Below, piece by piece: positions 26,485-58,501 of a stretch of 63,278 bases of DNA. Position numbers and translations under genes: made by a program. The stretch comes from Natrinema versiforme JCM 10478 (GTDB lineage Archaea; Halobacteriota; Halobacteria; Halobacteriales; Natrialbaceae). Numbering within the stretch: the stretch's first letter is position 1; every line of letters begins with the position of its first letter. The notes below the pieces were generated by a model. It was not told the DNA's origin and made no database searches. It saw only the letters and a program-made list of their open reading frames with translations. The stretch spans positions 71,085 through 134,362 of the forward strand of contig NZ_AOID01000063.1 in assembly GCF_000337195.1 (NCBI RefSeq), given 5' to 3'.

Positions 26485-27924
26485 ATGGGTCACCGCATGG
26501 ATGACTTCGAGGACCCTCGAGACGAGGCGGGGACATCGAAGGATGACACGACGGAGCAGGCTGACTCCTCGTCTGATTCTCCGATCCCCGAGCCGACCTC
26601 CTCATCGACCGATTCGGCAACAGCGGGCGAGTCGCAGTCGATCGAGGACATGCTCCTCGAGTTCGACCAACAGGAGGGACTCATTCGCGATCGATCGCTT
26701 CTCGACCCGAATCACATCGTCTCCGAGGACCGGATCGTCGGTCGGGACGAACAGTTACAAGAAGTAACCAAGATGCTCCGCGTCGCTCTGGGAGACAACC
26801 GACCGCCCAACCTCTTTCTCTACGGTCCGTCCGGAACCGGAAAATCGCTGATCACGAAAGCCGTCTGCAAGAATATCAGCAAAATCTGTGAGACGCGAGA
26901 CATTCGGTTCGGGACGATCGAGGTCAACTGCCAAGATCTCGATACCCTCGGCGTCGCCGTCTACGAACTCGCGAGTCGCGCGGCGGACGAAGCGGCCGTC
27001 GAGGTACAGGTCCCGAAACACGGCGTCGCGACCAAAGAGAAGTGGGACGAACTCTATCGCATCGTCAACGAAAACTTCGATTCCGCGGTGTTCGTCCTCG
27101 ACGAACTCGATATGCTCGTCGGCCGACGGGACAAACAGGAGCCCGCGTTCTCCCGACTGCTCTACCAGCTCTCTCGAGCCGGCGCGAACAACGACCTCAC
27201 TGCTCACGTCTCCGTCGTCGCGATTTCGAACGACACGAAAATGATGGAGTCCGTGGGGAGCCGCGCCCTGAGTTCCTTTACCCCCGAAGACGTCCACTTC
27301 GATGACTACAACGCGAACCAGCTCCAGTCGATCCTCCGTCGCCGGCGAGACGCCTTCTATGATGATGTTCTCGACGAGGACGTTATCCCGCTGGCGGCGG
27401 CCTTCGCGGCGCAGACCCACGGTGACGCTCGGAAGGCAATCGATCTCGTCCGAGTCGCCGGTGAGCTCGCGGAACGAGAGGGCGACGAACGCGTTCGCGA
27501 GGAACACGTTCGCGAAGCACAGGACAAAGTCGAGAAGAACCGAGTCCTCGAGGTCGTCCGCGGTATCAGCACGCAGAAGAAGCTCTGTCTCTACGCGACG
27601 GCGGCCGTCGCGTCGGAGGCCGACAACGAATCCGCTCGCAGCACGACCGGCTACCGCGTGTACCAATTTCTCACGGACGCGATCGACGCCGAGCAGTATC
27701 ACCAAGAGACCTACGTCAACAAGATGAAAGAGATGACGACGTACTCGCTCGTCGACTTCGAACGGCGGAGCCACGGCCCGAGTTCGGGGATGTTCCTCGA
27801 GTTCCAGTTCGGTGAACGCCCCGAAACGATCCTCGAAACGCTGCGCGAGGACTCGCGTCTCGAGATGGTCTCGGAAAACGAAGTCTCGAGCGTCGTTAAC
27901 GCGCAGGTTCGAAACGAAACCTGA
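26485..27924 (+). CDS. Orc1/Cdc6 replication initiator A
   Basis: 479 residues, AAA+ ATPase with Walker A GPSGTGKS at 114-121 and Walker B VFVLDELD at 202-209, sensor 1 in VVAISND, followed by a winged-helix region (about 385-470) that contacts ORB DNA. A Ser/Thr/Asp-rich N-terminal extension of about 50 residues precedes the core. It binds origin repeats and loads MCM helicase. It is flanked on both sides by its own repeat family (six upstream, three downstream), the standard arrangement for haloarchaeal cdc6-linked origins. The ATG at 26497 is an alternative start. Confidence 0.92.
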   Translation: MGHRMDDFEDPRDEAGTSKDDTTEQADSSSDSPIPEPTSSSTDSATAGESQSIEDMLLEFDQQEGLIRDRSLLDPNHIVSEDRIVGRDEQLQEVTKMLRVALGDNRPPNLFLYGPSGTGKSLITKAVCKNISKICETRDIRFGTIEVNCQDLDTLGVAVYELASRAADEAAVEVQVPKHGVATKEKWDELYRIVNENFDSAVFVLDELDMLVGRRDKQEPAFSRLLYQLSRAGANNDLTAHVSVVAISNDTKMMESVGSRALSSFTPEDVHFDDYNANQLQSILRRRRDAFYDDVLDEDVIPLAAAFAAQTHGDARKAIDLVRVAGELAEREGDERVREEHVREAQDKVEKNRVLEVVRGISTQKKLCLYATAAVASEADNESARSTTGYRVYQFLTDAIDAEQYHQETYVNKMKEMTTYSLVDFERRSHGPSSGMFLEFQFGERPETILETLREDSRLEMVSENEVSSVVNAQVRNET

Positions 27925-30134: not shown

Positions 30135-31427
30135 TTACTGAAATTGAGCGAGTGACGTGTTCTCGTCGGTCACGTCCTCGTCGAGGAGATGCTCCTGAAT
30201 GGAGTCGTGAATACCGACGTCGTCGAGGACCTCGTCGAGTGCCGAAAGGATGAGTTCGATGTCCATATCGAGGGTATACTCGCGATACGTTCCCCCACGC
30301 CGACCCTCGTTTCGTTCGGTGACCGAGACGAGTCCGAGCATGGCCAGTTCCGCCAGATGATCGCGCATCCGGCGCGGAACAAGCGGGTCCCGCCCGGCTC
30401 GCTGTGCGAAGTTGGTGTACCGGGGCCGGACGTCTCGTGAGCGGACCGGGGTCTCGTCCTGGAGATGCAGCGTGAGCAGGGAGTACAACACGAGATGACC
30501 GTGCTGGGTAAGCCCGCTGATGCCCTCCTCGATCCGACCGCGTTCCAGGTCGTGACGACCCGCCTCGACGTGGGTTTCGGCGACGGTGGTCGTCTCGGCT
30601 TCTTCTCGAGCGAGATCGCCGGCTTTCATCAGGAGGTCGATCGACTGGCGGGCATCGCCGGCGTCTTTCGCCCCGTAGGCGGCACACAGCGGAATCACTG
30701 CATCGTCGAGGACGTCGTCGTGAAACGCGACCGCCGCCCGCTGCTCGAGGATTTTCTGTAGATCGCTCGCGTCGTACGCGGGGAAATGGATCTCCTGTTC
30801 ACAGAGCGAACTCTTTACCTTCGGGGAGAGGTCGTCGCGAAACGAGAAATCGTTCGAGATACCGATAATCCCGATTTTCGCGTCGGAGAGGTTGTTGTTC
30901 GCACGCGCTCGCGGAAGCTGATAGAGGATCGAGTCGTCTTCGACGTGGTCGACTTCGTCCAGGACGATGAGATTGGTCCCGCCGAGATCGTCGAGATCGT
31001 CCCAGAGCATCTCGTAGACCGTCGCTCGCGGGTAGCCAGTCGTACTGATCTGATTCGTTTCGTCCCGGAGTTCGTTGACCAGACGCGTCGCGATTTGGTA
31101 CGAGGACGTGAGGCCGTCGCAGTTGAGGAACGTGAGCCGGAGATCAATATCGTCGTACTCGCTGGCGTCTTCCTCGAGGTGGGAAAGCAGATATCTGGTT
31201 GCAGCGGTCTTTCCGACGCCGGTCTTGCCGTAGAGAAAGACGTTGTTCGGCTGTTCGCCGTTGATCACGGGCTGGAGCGCGGCCTGATACATCTGGATTT
31301 CTTCGTCACGACCGACGAGTTGTGCCGGTTGATAATCCTCCCGCAGCGCGTCGCGATTTCTGTAGATTTCGGTGTCTCGTTCGAACAGGCTCATTCGGAC
31401 TGTCTCTGGCAGTGTGTCTCTCGGCAT
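30135..31427 (-). CDS. Orc1/Cdc6 replication initiator B
   Basis: 430 residues (or 419 from the ATG at 31394, which gives the common MSLFERDTE start). Walker A GKTGVGKT at 67-74, Walker B LIVLDEVD at 153-160, sensor 1 in IIGISND. C-terminal winged helix from about 320. The sequence up to FRNRDALREDYQP-type N-terminus is classical for haloarchaeal Orc proteins. Its upstream 0.7 kb holds a repeat family different from that of orc A, so it probably serves its own origin. Confidence 0.92.
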   Translation of the reverse strand: MPRDTLPETVRMSLFERDTEIYRNRDALREDYQPAQLVGRDEEIQMYQAALQPVINGEQPNNVFLYGKTGVGKTAATRYLLSHLEEDASEYDDIDLRLTFLNCDGLTSSYQIATRLVNELRDETNQISTTGYPRATVYEMLWDDLDDLGGTNLIVLDEVDHVEDDSILYQLPRARANNNLSDAKIGIIGISNDFSFRDDLSPKVKSSLCEQEIHFPAYDASDLQKILEQRAAVAFHDDVLDDAVIPLCAAYGAKDAGDARQSIDLLMKAGDLAREEAETTTVAETHVEAGRHDLERGRIEEGISGLTQHGHLVLYSLLTLHLQDETPVRSRDVRPRYTNFAQRAGRDPLVPRRMRDHLAELAMLGLVSVTERNEGRRGGTYREYTLDMDIELILSALDEVLDDVGIHDSIQEHLLDEDVTDENTSLAQFQ

Positions 31428-31440
31428 GGTTTATAAAACC

Positions 31441-32099
31441 ACACTGTCCGGAGTGTCCGCAGTTCTTTGCACTTATATCAAACCGCGGGACACACCCACC
31501 CCACTATGTCCGCAGTAATTGTGCTCCGAGGGTGGGGATGGTCTCAGATGGCTATCTAGACTACAGAAGTTTTAATACAATCCACTGAGAGCTAGTCCAA
31601 ATGGCAACTGTAGTTGATATTTCAGATTAGTAAATATCTGAAATATACGCTCCCAGATCAGGCACCCCCCGTTCGTTCGGCAGAACAGCGGACACGGTGG
31701 GGTGGGTGTGTCGACTCTCGTACTCGAGTTAGCAGTGTGACCGCAACTCTCGTCTCTCACCATTGTTTTCTCCCTATACTACCCGATTGACTGGTCTTCT
31801 CGAACTGCGTATTCCGATACCATCGGTGCCGACTGCGTTCTTCCACACCATGCTGTCCGCTGCTCTCGGTTCGGTTCCATCTCTTCGGGATCGCGGATAC
31901 CGCCGCTCCTTCCCGCCGAGTTTCTCCTCTCTACAGCCCTGAGATCGCCCAGTCTTCCACACGGAACAGCGGACATTGTGGTGTCCGTGCTTTGGTCCGG
32001 CCTCTCTCGAGTTCCGTTCTCCCAGTCCAACCACACACCACCATGTCCGCAGTTCTCGACCGAACTATCAGTATAACAACGGACATGGTGGTGTGGTGT
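31441..32099. repeat. Second family of origin repeats, upstream of orc gene B
   Basis: Seven copies of a motif with consensus CACACCACCATGTCCGCAGT: 31441-31464, 31492-31520, 31684-31711 (minus), 31843-31864, 31963-31989 (minus), 32033-32056 and 32078-32099 (minus). They occur as facing pairs in both orientations and differ from the orc A repeats except for a shared CACACC edge. No gene lies in this 0.9-kb region. Confidence 0.8.
31617..31646. repeat. AT-rich 11-bp inverted repeat inside origin B
   Basis: Arms ATATTTCAGAT (31617-31627) and ATCTGAAATAT (31636-31646) flank an 8-base loop. The surrounding 31540-31660 is the most AT-rich part of the origin, so this is a candidate DNA-unwinding element. 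Confidence 0.5.
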
Positions 32100-32196
32100 C
32101 GACAGAATCGATATTCGTAGCCCTTCTGAACTGCTCATCAATTGCCGCCACTCGCATTCGTAGTCCTCAAATTCGAGCCATCGTGCTGGTTTTACG

Positions 32197-32222
32197 AGTT
32201 AGGCTAACTAGTTAGCCTACCT
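32197..32222. repeat. Isolated copy of the partition-type motif
   Basis: GAGTTAGGCTAACTAGTTAG followed by CCTACC contains the palindrome GGCTAACTAGTTAGCC. The same TTAGGCTAAC element is repeated upstream of ParA at 56.3-57.2 kb, so this may be an outlying partition or regulatory site next to origin B. Confidence 0.5.
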
Positions 32223-32330
32223 GGATAGACTATTACCATTCTTGGTCGCCTCGGACGGTGTTCCCACCCCAATTTAGCAATCGGACGAAAGTGGCGACTG
32301 AAAGAAAACCGGGCTATTAGTCCTCGCAGC

Positions 32331-49576: not shown

Positions 49577-49604
49577 AATTCGCGACCAATAGCGTCTCAA
49601 AAAG

Positions 49605-50747
49605 TTGTTGCAAGTTTCTCATCTTCCGGACGGTGATCGAATCATCGGTCGCGAAGACGAACTCACAAATTTGGCGAACGCGATTAAGCCTGCGACGCGT
49701 GGGAATACGCCGAACAATGTGCTCGTCTACGGAAAAACGGGGACTGGAAAATCCCTCTGTTCGAAGTTCATCACGAATCAGGCTGTGAATCAGGCCGCAA
49801 GCAATGATATCTCGATCGGTGTCGCCTATATCGATTGTTTGCAGGAATCAACGGAAACGCAGGCCGTCCAGTCTATCGGTTACCAACTGAACGAGCCGAC
49901 GAAAACTGACGTATCAATCCCTCACTCCGGTCTTAGCACGTCGGAATATTATCGCCGCCTCTGGCGAATTGTTGACGACCGGTACGATGTTGCCCTGATA
50001 ATCCTCGATGAAGTCGACAAGATCGAGGACGACGATATTCTTATGCAACTCTCTCGAGCGGTTGAGTCGGGGAAACTCACCGAAAGCACAATTGGCGTGA
50101 TCGGAATTTCGAATAAGGTTCGGTACAAGGAGTCCCTTGACGAACGAATCAAGTCGAGTCTCTGTGAACGCGAATATGTTTTCTCACCATATGATGCGAA
50201 TCAGATCCGAGAGATACTACATTCGCGATCTGATGCCTTTCATGAAGGTGTCCTCGATGAAGCCGTTATTCCTCGAGTAGCTGCGCTCGCTGCTCGCGAG
50301 CATGGTGACGCACGAAAGGCGATCGACATTTTCAGATTTGCTGGAGAGATTGCCGAGGAAAATGATCACGATGCCGTCGCTGAGGAATGCGTTGAACAGG
50401 CCCATGAACGTGAGGAAACCAGCCGTCTCGCTGAACTGATCTCGAAGAGTCCGAGCCATGCGAAACTGGTGCTTGAAGCAATGGCCTTCTTGTCTCAACA
50501 GAACGGTGGCAATGATGTCCCAATCACGACCAACGAAGTGTTTGATCTCTATAAGACCCTCTGCGACCGTGATGGCTCTGACCATCTCAAACTGCGCCGT
50601 GTTCGCGATATTCTGTCTGAACTCGAGTTCCTGTCGATAATTAATCAAGAGCGTAAATGGGCGGGGAAGGGCAAAGGGAACTACATGGAGAACAGATTGA
50701 TTGACGATCCACAGGTCATTATTGCTGCTTGTAACGAATCTGAGTGA
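49605..50747 (+). CDS. Orc1/Cdc6 replication initiator C, short N-terminus
   Basis: 380 residues with Walker A GKTGTGKS at 43-50, Walker B ALIILDEVD at 130-138, sensor IGVIGISNK and a C-terminal winged-helix region. It begins with a TTG (49605; another TTG at 49602) right after an in-frame stop, and reads LQVSHLPDGDRIIGRED: the 15-25 residues that normally precede this (RNEDAL-type segment) are missing. Codon use is more AT-rich than that of orc A and B, hinting at separate origin. Whether the shortened form is active is uncertain. Confidence 0.85.
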   Translation: MLQVSHLPDGDRIIGREDELTNLANAIKPATRGNTPNNVLVYGKTGTGKSLCSKFITNQAVNQAASNDISIGVAYIDCLQESTETQAVQSIGYQLNEPTKTDVSIPHSGLSTSEYYRRLWRIVDDRYDVALIILDEVDKIEDDDILMQLSRAVESGKLTESTIGVIGISNKVRYKESLDERIKSSLCEREYVFSPYDANQIREILHSRSDAFHEGVLDEAVIPRVAALAAREHGDARKAIDIFRFAGEIAEENDHDAVAEECVEQAHEREETSRLAELISKSPSHAKLVLEAMAFLSQQNGGNDVPITTNEVFDLYKTLCDRDGSDHLKLRRVRDILSELEFLSIINQERKWAGKGKGNYMENRLIDDPQVIIAACNESE

Positions 50748-56137: not shown

Positions 56138-56277
56138 GCGGGTGCTGATCCTCGAGGCGGTTCACTGAACGGGTACTGGTCCTCGAACTGGATCGCGTTC
56201 GATCACCGTGAGTGAGGATTCGATTCACCGCCGAAAAATATATCCTCCTGCGTGGCTATTCCGATATCCTATCTAGA

Positions 56278-57164
56278 TGGGCTAACTGATTAGTCTAACT
56301 AATAGGACTATCTTAGAGGGTCGGATTCTCTCCAAACTGGCTGCGACCTGAGCTATCAACCAACTTTCTGAGTGCACAGTCTCCAAGATCTCGAGCAGTC
56401 GAGTCGTCCGAACGAGTGGCCGCTTTGTTCCGATCGGGTCCACGACTAATCGAATGGGCCGATCCAGATCTCGAGCACCAGCAACCATCCACATCTTCCG
56501 ATCACTCAGTCAGCTGGTTCCACTCGTTCGGGTCGGTATGTTCGATGCAACTTCCGGTCAACTGTACACCACTGCTGGGCGATGATGATTAGTCTATTTC
56601 ATTAGGCTAACTAGCTATGTTCTCGAATAGGACTGGCCAGCAATCCGCTATCGAGAATGTACCGATCCAGTTCGTCCAACGCGGTTTCCTCGTTCGGATG
56701 GCCTATTGGCAAGTTTAGGCGGCTGTGTCGGTTAGACCATAACGTTAGTCTTACTGGTTAGGCCATCTAATGATCTTTTCTAGATCGTCTACTTTCCGAT
56801 TAGGCTTGCTGAATAGGCGGTTCGAATAGGTTCTCGGGTTCAAAGCTGAGTGAAGGACATCTCCATAGGCTGCTTCGTTAGTTGTCCTATTTGGTCTAAC
56901 TGAATGGACCAACCAAATAGGCTAGCTAAATAGGCCAACTAGTTTTCCTTGCTTCTCAAGTAGCTGTCTCGAAATCGCCACTCGGAGCAGTTCTCTGCGT
57001 CGGCCGATCGATTCACTCTGGTATTGTTTCTCCCGCTCGCTCCGGTTCGGCTGGAGGAGAACACTTGTTAAAGCGACTTTTTAGTTAGGCTAACTGACTG
57101 GCCTAACCAAACGGACTATCGAGTACGTATGGCGAAGTATTATATTCGAGAAGACTAACTAACT
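56278..57164. repeat. Partition/iteron-like array upstream of parA
   Basis: At least seven clusters built on TTAGGCTAAC or degenerate forms (TTAGTCTAAC, TTAGACCATAAC, TTAGGCCAAC) occur at 56278-56311, 56589-56615, 56731-56771, 56799-56817, 56884-56942, 57081-57120 and 57152-57164. Most contain two half-sites facing each other, for example GGCTAACTGACTGGCCTAAC at 57087-57106. The array fills the 1-kb non-coding gap and its last member lies between the TATA and ATG of parA. It is a candidate centromere and autoregulatory operator. Confidence 0.65.
57138..57146 (+). promoter_or_regulatory. TATA element of parA
   Basis: TATTATATT, 22-30 bases before the ATG at 57168. The last repeat of the array (57152-57164) is between it and the start codon, so a bound partner would shut the promoter. 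Confidence 0.5.
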
Positions 57165-57167
57165 CGT

Positions 57168-58010
57168 ATGCTCACATATACGACCTACTCGGAGGCCGGC
57201 GGCGTCGGGAAGTCGACGATCGGTGCGGCGCTGCTCGAGGCCCACGCCAATCACGGGCTCGACGTGCTCGCGATCGATATGGATCAGCAAAACGGCTCGC
57301 TCACCTACCTCCTCGACGTCGACGCTCCTCGCGACGACAGTCAGGCGGACAACATCGTTCGGCACCTGATCGACCGACCGAAGGGCCCCCTCGAGGATCT
57401 CATTTACGAAACCGAGTCCGGCTTCGATCTCCTCCCGAGTCACAACATGCTCGAGAACCTCGAGGACCTCCTCAATCGCGCACAGCAGATGGCCGACGAT
57501 CTCGGCGAGGGCGATGACTTCGATCCCTACGACCGGCTTCGACAGGTGCTCCTCGCGTCCAGTATCCCACAGGAGTACGACGTGATCGTCGTCGATCCGC
57601 CGGCGACTGCGGGCCCCCACCTCTACAACGCCGTGTCGGCGACGCGGAGCTTAGTGATTCCCGTCGAGCCCACCGGCAAGGGAATGCAAAGCGTCCTCGG
57701 ACTAGAAGAGCTCGTCGACGGTCTCGAGGATCGACTCGAAGCCGAGATCGGCGTCCTCGCGGCCGTTCCCAACGGCGTCGGTCGGACGTCCGCCCAGGAG
57801 CGGTACCTCACGGAGATCCGCGATCGCGGGTATCCCGCCCCGGTCGCGATCCGCGAGCGCTCGTCGCTTTTCGAAGGCTGCTGGGACCAACAGTGTACGC
57901 CGCGACACTACGTCGAGGAACACCGCGACCGGCAACGCGACCACGAGATGGAGACACTCGAGAAGATCGATCAGCTGGCGACGGAGATCGAGGAGGTTGA
58001 CGACCGATGA
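57168..58010 (+). CDS. parA: ParA-type partition ATPase with a deviant Walker A
   Basis: 280 residues. The P-loop is SEAGGVGKST at residues 8-17: the second Lys of ParA/MinD proteins, which normally comes two positions before the GG, is replaced by Ala. Walker A' DMDQQNGSL and Walker B VIVVDPP follow in the usual order. It probably polymerises or cycles on nucleoid DNA to segregate the replicon. It overlaps the next gene by ATGA and is preceded by a repeat array, the normal par locus layout. Confidence 0.85.
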   Translation: MLTYTTYSEAGGVGKSTIGAALLEAHANHGLDVLAIDMDQQNGSLTYLLDVDAPRDDSQADNIVRHLIDRPKGPLEDLIYETESGFDLLPSHNMLENLEDLLNRAQQMADDLGEGDDFDPYDRLRQVLLASSIPQEYDVIVVDPPATAGPHLYNAVSATRSLVIPVEPTGKGMQSVLGLEELVDGLEDRLEAEIGVLAAVPNGVGRTSAQERYLTEIRDRGYPAPVAIRERSSLFEGCWDQQCTPRHYVEEHRDRQRDHEMETLEKIDQLATEIEEVDDR

Positions 58011-58501
58011 AGAAGGGATCCGGGAGCGATCCGTTTGCGGAGGTCCAAGAGGAAGCGGAGAGTGCTGACGCGGAATCGGAGACGACCGAAGAGACGCCCG
58101 CCACCGACGAGTCTGAATCCGACCCCGAGCCAGAGCAGCCGGTCACCGAAGACGCTGACTCTCGAGTCGAGTCCGAGACGGACACGGATCGGGACGATGA
58201 GAGCACCGCTGACTCGAGTGCGGAGATCATCGACGAGCCACCCCAAAACGGCGCTGACGATGGCGGCGTTCCCTGGGTTTACGTTCGGGATACGGTCAAG
58301 CAGGACCGCGAGATGGTCCAGTTCTATCTCCGAGATTACGTCGTCGACGCCGAGGACGAGTTTGTCGATGCGGTCAGCGACGAACTCGGGACCGACGTTT
58401 CGAAGACCGACGTTCGGGAAGCGGCCTACGAGGCGGCGATGCACAACGTCGACGAAGTCGTTGACCGACTCGAGGCGTGGGGCTTCGAATCGGAGGACTA
58501 A
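58007..58501 (+). CDS. Acidic ParA-partner protein, probable centromere-binding function
   Basis: 164 residues. The first 90 are extremely acidic (Glu/Asp/Ser/Thr) and probably disordered; the last 75 form a small domain (PWVYVRDTVKQDREMVQFYLRD; a long helical region ending in DRLEAWGFE). There is no ParB or helix-turn-helix signature. Its start overlaps parA by ATGA and the position is that of the centromere-binding partner in two-gene partition systems, so it is inferred to bind the array at 56.3-57.2 kb. Confidence 0.6.
   Translation: MKKGSGSDPFAEVQEEAESADAESETTEETPATDESESDPEPEQPVTEDADSRVESETDTDRDDESTADSSAEIIDEPPQNGADDGGVPWVYVRDTVKQDREMVQFYLRDYVVDAEDEFVDAVSDELGTDVSKTDVREAAYEAAMHNVDEVVDRLEAWGFESED

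Follow-up and report, generated by a model that had tools for sequence, protein, structure and literature searches.

A 63,278-nucleotide stretch of the Natrinema versiforme JCM 10478 genome, here called the window, carries an operon of two genes (57168-58501, forward strand) that encode a ParA-family ATPase and a small partner protein. The start of the partner gene overlaps the end of parA by 4 bp (ATGA), and an array of near-palindromic units with a strict 13-bp pitch lies upstream. The best reading of these elements is a type Ib-like plasmid partition system of haloarchaea, in which the partner would act both as centromere-binding protein and as autorepressor. We put at roughly 85% the probability that a secondary replicon of Natrinema, probably a megaplasmid, is home to an active partition locus here. 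A partition locus of haloarchaeal type is well supported by the conserved operon, the conserved 13-bp array, the restriction of sites to one replicon, and the plasmid location.

The operon, the array, its pitch, their class-wide conservation, the association of sites with cognate genes, and an exchange of the signature lysine in ParA all come from sequence comparison. Together they outline what appears to be an undescribed three-part sorting system on many large haloarchaeal plasmids, in which a motor enzyme works with a small partner that would bind DNA and with a docking site of 13-base units. Haloarchaea are polyploid and maintain several megaplasmids per cell. No earlier account of a haloarchaeal ParA-partner-array system was found in the open-access literature that we searched. 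A 2016 review counts what archaeal centromeres are, and how they are arranged, among the open questions (PMC5120986). A preliminary description of this DNA had outlined a partition locus; the sequence features that it noted are confirmed, and its interpretation is supported in part. It did not recognize the predicted RHH-like domain of the partner, the regular 13-bp spacing, or the satellites described below.

The 13-bp array and its satellite sites

A position weight matrix (PWM) built iteratively from the DNA upstream of 12 close loci gave the near-palindromic unit RRWTAGNCTAWYY. Scanning the window with this PWM revealed some 20 units within 56262-57160, arranged at a strict 13-bp pitch in seven clusters. 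Seven clusters had also been counted in the preliminary description, but as facing half-sites; the real order is one of near-palindromic units at 13-bp intervals. Among the 12 close loci, successive units are separated by exactly 13 bp, center to center, in 155 cases; the distance distribution also peaks at 39 and 52 bp and, less strongly, at 26 bp.

Cluster 1 (56262-56313), delimited by unit and trimer scans, has four units centered at 56268, 56281, 56294, and 56307, each 13 bp from the next. Clusters 2 (56587-56612; centers 56593 and 56606) and 3 (56743-56768; centers 56749 and 56762) have two units each, and cluster 4 (56798-56836) has three, of which the one at 56804 is accompanied by weak units at 56817 and 56830. 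In cluster 5 (56880-56940), centers at 56895, 56908, 56921, and 56934 keep the 13-bp pitch, and an overlapping match is present at 56886. Cluster 6 (57083-57121) lies just 5' of the promoter, with centers at 57089, 57102, and 57115 that correspond to -79, -66, and -53 relative to the parA ATG. The seventh element is a single unit (57148-57160) centered at 57154, or -14.

The putative parA promoter contains a TATA-like element that we read from the sequence at about 57137-57146 (forward strand), ~27 bp before the ATG. The unit at 57154 falls between this element and the start codon, and the three units of cluster 6 lie just upstream, which agrees with the earlier claim that one cluster sits inside the promoter. 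Units at -66 and -14 are conserved in all 12 close loci, and those at -79 and -53 in most of them. Because array units flank the TATA-like element, they suggest that parA is autoregulated.

A trimer model with 13-bp pitch matches the window in just two places, the array and 32190-32242. Scores reach 36.1 in the array and 39.2, the window maximum, at the second location; 20 Markov simulations of the window gave scores of at most 11.8. This satellite trimer (32197-32235; centers 32203, 32216, and 32229, at 13-bp pitch) is the same type of site as the array and falls outside the region that was first described. It is intergenic, includes the perfect 20-bp palindrome TAGGCTAACTAGTTAGCCTA, and is 0.8 kb from a cdc6/orc1 gene (30270-31367, reverse strand). 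Two other cdc6/orc1 genes (26680-27810 and 49599-50699) bring the number to three within 25 kb in the window, and the genome has at least 10 above the family cut-off. Upstream of the gene at 30270-31367, the region 31970-32095 holds the inverted repeats CACACCACCATGTCCG (32034-32049) and CGGACATGGTGGTGTG (32080-32095), with the related CGGACATTGTGGTGTCCG nearby; it is a probable replication origin, ~100 bp from the satellite.

The genome is a draft of 72 contigs, in which the window spans 71085-134362 of contig C63, and genome-wide scans were made by pattern. A dimer pattern allowing up to three mismatches occurs in 13 places, which are distributed over the array, the 32.2-kb satellite, and a single site on contig C62, whereas a reversed control pattern has no match in the whole genome. 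C62 is not the contig of the locus and may belong to another replicon. Among 22 congeners, the motif is found in all 14 that have a close or clade-2 orthologue of the locus (6 to 17 matches each) and in none of the eight that do not; the reversed pattern yields 0 to 4 matches in these genomes.

Across the congeners, the motif is nearly always on the replicon that encodes the ParA-partner pair. In the near-complete assemblies listed, matches with at most two mismatches are on the locus-bearing contig, despite other ParA-partner copies in several of the genomes, and contigs with such further copies have motif matches no higher than control level. Satellites in these assemblies share the contig of the locus, the closest only a few kb from it and the farthest several hundred. 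Eighteen of the 19 satellite stretches examined overlap no ORF of at least 150 aa. Single matches with three mismatches on other contigs (G016:C2, G022:C1, and G024:C1) were rejected as sites; they do not exceed what the reversed pattern gives as a control, and one that was re-examined (L093) has no cluster. Regular proximity of satellites to cdc6/orc1 genes was likewise rejected as only partial, with some satellites and arrays within 5 kb of such a gene and others not.

Among plasmid records, the nearest is NZ_CP040332 of Natrinema versiforme (413,865 bp), in which the pair is annotated as "ParA family protein" and "hypothetical protein." One close homologue (L042; G010:C1, at 1.27 Mb of 4.19 Mb) resides together with a satellite on a 4.19-Mb contig. 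Thus, the system is not strictly plasmid-borne, and in this genome the main chromosome may have captured the locus or received it by integration.

ParA and its partner protein

The parA gene (57168-58010, forward strand) encodes a 280-residue ATPase with the P-loop SEAGGVGKST, in which Ala10 replaces the signature lysine and Lys15 is the P-loop lysine; an invariant Lys171 is found in EPTGKG. This reading bears out the preliminary description, which had pointed to AGGVGKST and the missing lysine. The protein is a small ParA without an N-terminal HTH, its P-loop starting at residue 8 of 280. Pfam matches above cut-off are AAA_31 (63.7 bits) and CbiA (40.2 bits), and the AF2 model (pLDDT 92.5) matches Soj with an E value of about 2e-12. 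The ParA/CbiA-type P-loop NTPase fold is therefore present.

The signature lysine of KGGxxK[S/T] is absent from the whole family: the 122 distinct ParAs compared have Ala (116) or Ser (6) at this position. The contig scan described below was seeded with YSEAGGVGK, which biases its P-loop survey, but partner-seeded and ParA-seeded genome searches lead to the same outcome. Among 152 ParA loci, 146 combine Ala or Ser at this position with a partner gene (146 of the 147 with Ala or Ser), and the four with Lys all have no partner. Lys171 is present in every one of the 122 distinct proteins, and another residue takes its place in three KGG-type ParAs that were aligned.

A profile of the C-terminal half of ParA finds cyanobacterial McdA as the best solved structures, with "IPAEASTKGVNSL" aligned to "IPVEPSGKGMQSV" and Lys171 opposite an McdA lysine. 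In 6noo, this lysine is chain residue 171 and belongs to the McdA sequence "EASTKG." In the McdA structure of Schumacher 2019, the signature role is reportedly given to Lys151. As a lead, we take residue 171 of 6noo to be native Lys151, if a 20-residue tag is subtracted. Judged by these alignments, the whole family has exchanged the signature lysine for the invariant Lys171, with McdA as precedent, and the absence of the former is not a loss peculiar to the gene in the window. An exchange known from McdA is thereby suggested in DNA partition too.

The partner (58007-58501, forward strand) is a proposed centromere-binding protein of 164 aa. Its head, MKKGSGSDPFAE (58007-58042), contains a K/R-x-G that is close to the N terminus in all 82 partner homologues, and is the part that we propose contacts ParA. 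An acidic low-complexity linker follows (58043-58264); residues 1-86 include 32 D/E versus 4 K/R. The protein had been described as having a 90-residue acidic tail. The acidic stretch is real, but it is N-terminal, and there is in addition a folded C-terminal domain (residues 87-164; 58265-58501).

This C-terminal domain, which has residues that are invariant across 42 diverse homologues, is predicted to be RHH-like from its AF2 model and a CopG/RHH alignment. The monomer model (pLDDT 86.5, pTM 0.74) has an unpaired extended segment, MVQFYLRD, and then three helices. It aligns with CopG (1ea4) over 42 of 42 residues at 1.5 Å, albeit with a low Z of 4.4, and further alignments were obtained with TraM (4qpo; 51 residues, 2.6 Å, Z 4.3), DinJ, VapB, ParD, and NikA; the best ones are mostly RHH proteins. 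Because a Foldseek search with the partner model gave no significant fold match (E above 4), we regard the RHH-like fold as a supported prediction.

By sequence, the partner matches no known RHH family, and no Pfam family covers the C-terminal domain in the 42 members searched. A partner profile had no confident match among PDB chains, which leaves no solved structure related by sequence. ParB-type Pfam domains (CTPase or HTH) were detected neither in the full partner nor in the C-terminal domains of the 42 members, as expected from the earlier statement that the partner has no ParB domain. Matches to Pfam HBM and XH and to NCBIfam SdrC fall below cut-off and were rejected, as they look like chance or low complexity. 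One partner gene (NZ_CP084883.1, 344345-344812) is labeled "MSCRAMM family adhesin SdrC," a name that it evidently received in error through low-complexity sequence.

Distribution in Halobacteria

A ParA-seeded scan yielded 80 haloarchaeal loci and 3 IMG/VR contigs. ParA served as the seed for scanning contigs because a partner alignment has no sufficiently conserved stretch. Upstream regions were grouped by similarity into 52 independent clusters, and p values were obtained from Markov shuffles. A lag of 13 is significant (p<=0.01) upstream of parA in 42 of these 52 independent loci across Halobacteria, and 13, 26, or 39 is the top lag in 44 of them. Summed upstream lag counts are 1153 at 13, 829 at 26, 523 at 39, and 490 at 52, compared with ~70 at most other lags. 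Downstream of the operon there is no comparable periodicity (92 at lag 13). The pitch is conserved but the motif is not: unit sequences vary by clade, with cores such as TTAGnCTAA, YAGTMTAACT, TCTTAGA, and GTTnCAAAC, all near-palindromic. A paralogue in the same genome, on contig C36 (ParA 38% identical), also has an upstream 13-bp pitch without the RRWTAGNCTAWYY motif.

The partner-domain profile matches 121 of 194 sampled genomes of the class and 49 of 65 genera. In a sample of the phylum, 19 genomes are positive and every one is from the haloarchaeal order, with none outside it among the matches listed. PLSDB holds 93 plasmid records with partner homologues, and all of the genera listed are haloarchaeal. 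The system thus looks like a new variant that is class-wide in Halobacteria. We think it fairly probable, at lower confidence than for the partition locus itself, that it constitutes a class-wide archaeal plasmid partition family that joins an McdA-like, relocated-lysine ParA to an RHH-like adaptor. The 13-bp pitch would be universal and the near-palindromic sequence specific to each clade, such that each replicon in a multi-replicon cell has its own centromere code.

Three IMG/VR viral contigs (L174-L176, 47-54 kb) carry the ParA-partner pair, and two have a clear upstream 13-bp pitch. The Natrinema genome also encodes a ParA whose P-loop is the normal KGGVGKTT and whose small partner is of another kind (L056, 9541-10895), upstream of which 13 is the top lag (17 versus a median of 1); an exact repeat family was not found there. 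An HNH-endonuclease-like ORF at L056 (10952-11404) has a C-terminal part (KPIYIREEAW...EATLLVAAEHPELI) that resembles the partner C-terminal domain by eye.

Alternative explanations, mechanism, and known systems

The array could instead be an iteron-type replication origin, or a copy-control element, that is read by a Cdc6/Orc1 initiator and has the parA-partner pair as a mere neighbor. Arrays or satellites are indeed a few kb from cdc6/orc1 genes in the window and at L040, L043, L077, L079, L081, L083, L087, and L089. However, among the congeners the array follows the parA-partner pair rather than cdc6 (14/14 versus 0/8), close relatives of the cdc6 genes of the window are missing from the 20 kb fetched at several loci, and the motif shifts with partner clade while the pitch stays constant. 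We therefore consider this explanation very improbable. About as small a chance is left for a partner that is solely a transcriptional autoregulator, with the array as its operator and ParA independent of it. An array of ~0.9 kb with satellites at least 10 kb away is far more than an operator needs, even though a unit lies between the TATA-like element and the start codon in 12 of 12 close loci, and the invariant head and strict linkage to A/S-type ParA point to ParA contact.

Least probable of all is that the locus positions cargo on the nucleoid, as McdAB does, or serves some other cargo and does not partition DNA. It would fit the loss of the Walker-A lysine and the lysine aligned with McdA, but not the sequence-periodic DNA array that is the evident cargo tag, the plasmid distribution, or the DNA-binding type of fold predicted for the partner.

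For the partition system that we favor, the most likely mechanism would be a diffusion ratchet. The array would be the centromere, and its promoter units would double as an operator. The partner would dimerize through its RHH-like C-terminal domain, bind each near-palindromic unit, and assemble into multi-dimer complexes at the array and the satellites of the same replicon, the latter serving as extra anchoring or bridging points. Units are ~1.24 helical turns apart, so successive RHH-like dimers would spiral around the DNA. The flexible N-terminal arm, with its conserved K/R-x-G...DPF head, would contact ParA and stimulate its ATPase. An ATP sandwich dimer of ParA that employs the relocated Lys171, as in McdA, and not a Walker-A signature lysine would bind the nucleoid and separate plasmid copies. 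We expect autoregulation as well as partition. Sequence comparison shows the parts and their co-conservation; DNA binding, ATPase stimulation, autorepression, and segregation are inferred. Archaeal plasmid "centromeres" become directly testable through such a system, and the candidate centromeres, the candidate centromere-binding family, and the replicon-specific code can now be tested in Haloferax or Natrinema.

Type Ib systems (ParF-ParG of TP228 and delta-omega of pSM19035) combine a small ParA without an N-terminal HTH, a flexible-arm RHH adaptor, and an upstream repeat centromere that overlaps the promoter. The haloarchaeal locus likewise has a small ParA without this HTH and repeats upstream that extend over the promoter, and its adaptor is small as well, with an N-terminal arm that is flexible and a C-terminal domain predicted to be RHH-like. 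It differs in its 13-bp near-palindromic pitch, long acidic linker, lack of a Walker-A signature lysine, and distant satellites, and no sequence relation was found between the adaptors.

SegAB of Sulfolobales and other archaea pairs a ParA-like ATPase with an RHH adaptor encoded by overlapping genes, with sites near the locus and scattered farther away (PMC12284271). The likeness is at the level of layout: adjacent genes that overlap (by 4 bp here), a ParA-like ATPase with a (predicted) RHH adaptor, and sites both near and far. However, SegAB is chromosomal, and SegB sites are mostly intragenic narrow peaks (PMC12284271), whereas the haloarchaeal sites are periodic arrays and mostly intergenic satellites, largely on plasmids; the partner profile detected no SegB homology among PDB chains.

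McdA, which positions carboxysomes (type 1), also has no signature lysine, its Walker A being SGGQGKT, and is nevertheless a strong ATPase (PMC9178275, PMC6328274). Its "STKG" lysine aligns with haloarchaeal Lys171. The haloarchaeal ParA is closer to Soj in overall sequence, and the McdA cargo is carboxysomes, reached through McdB, a protein without direct DNA binding (PMC6328274). The haloarchaeal ParA also departs from the ParA/MinD group in that the defining deviant Walker-A lysine is absent. With ParABS of type Ia and the chromosomal ParB-CTPase systems, the locus shares a ParA-family ATPase and a cis site, but its partner has no ParB, HTH, or CTPase domain. The earlier proposal of a haloarchaeal partition type that differs in mechanism from bacterial ParABS gains comparative support from this difference and must be qualified by the layout, in which a small ParA, a small adaptor, and an upstream repeat array as candidate centromere resemble bacterial type Ib.
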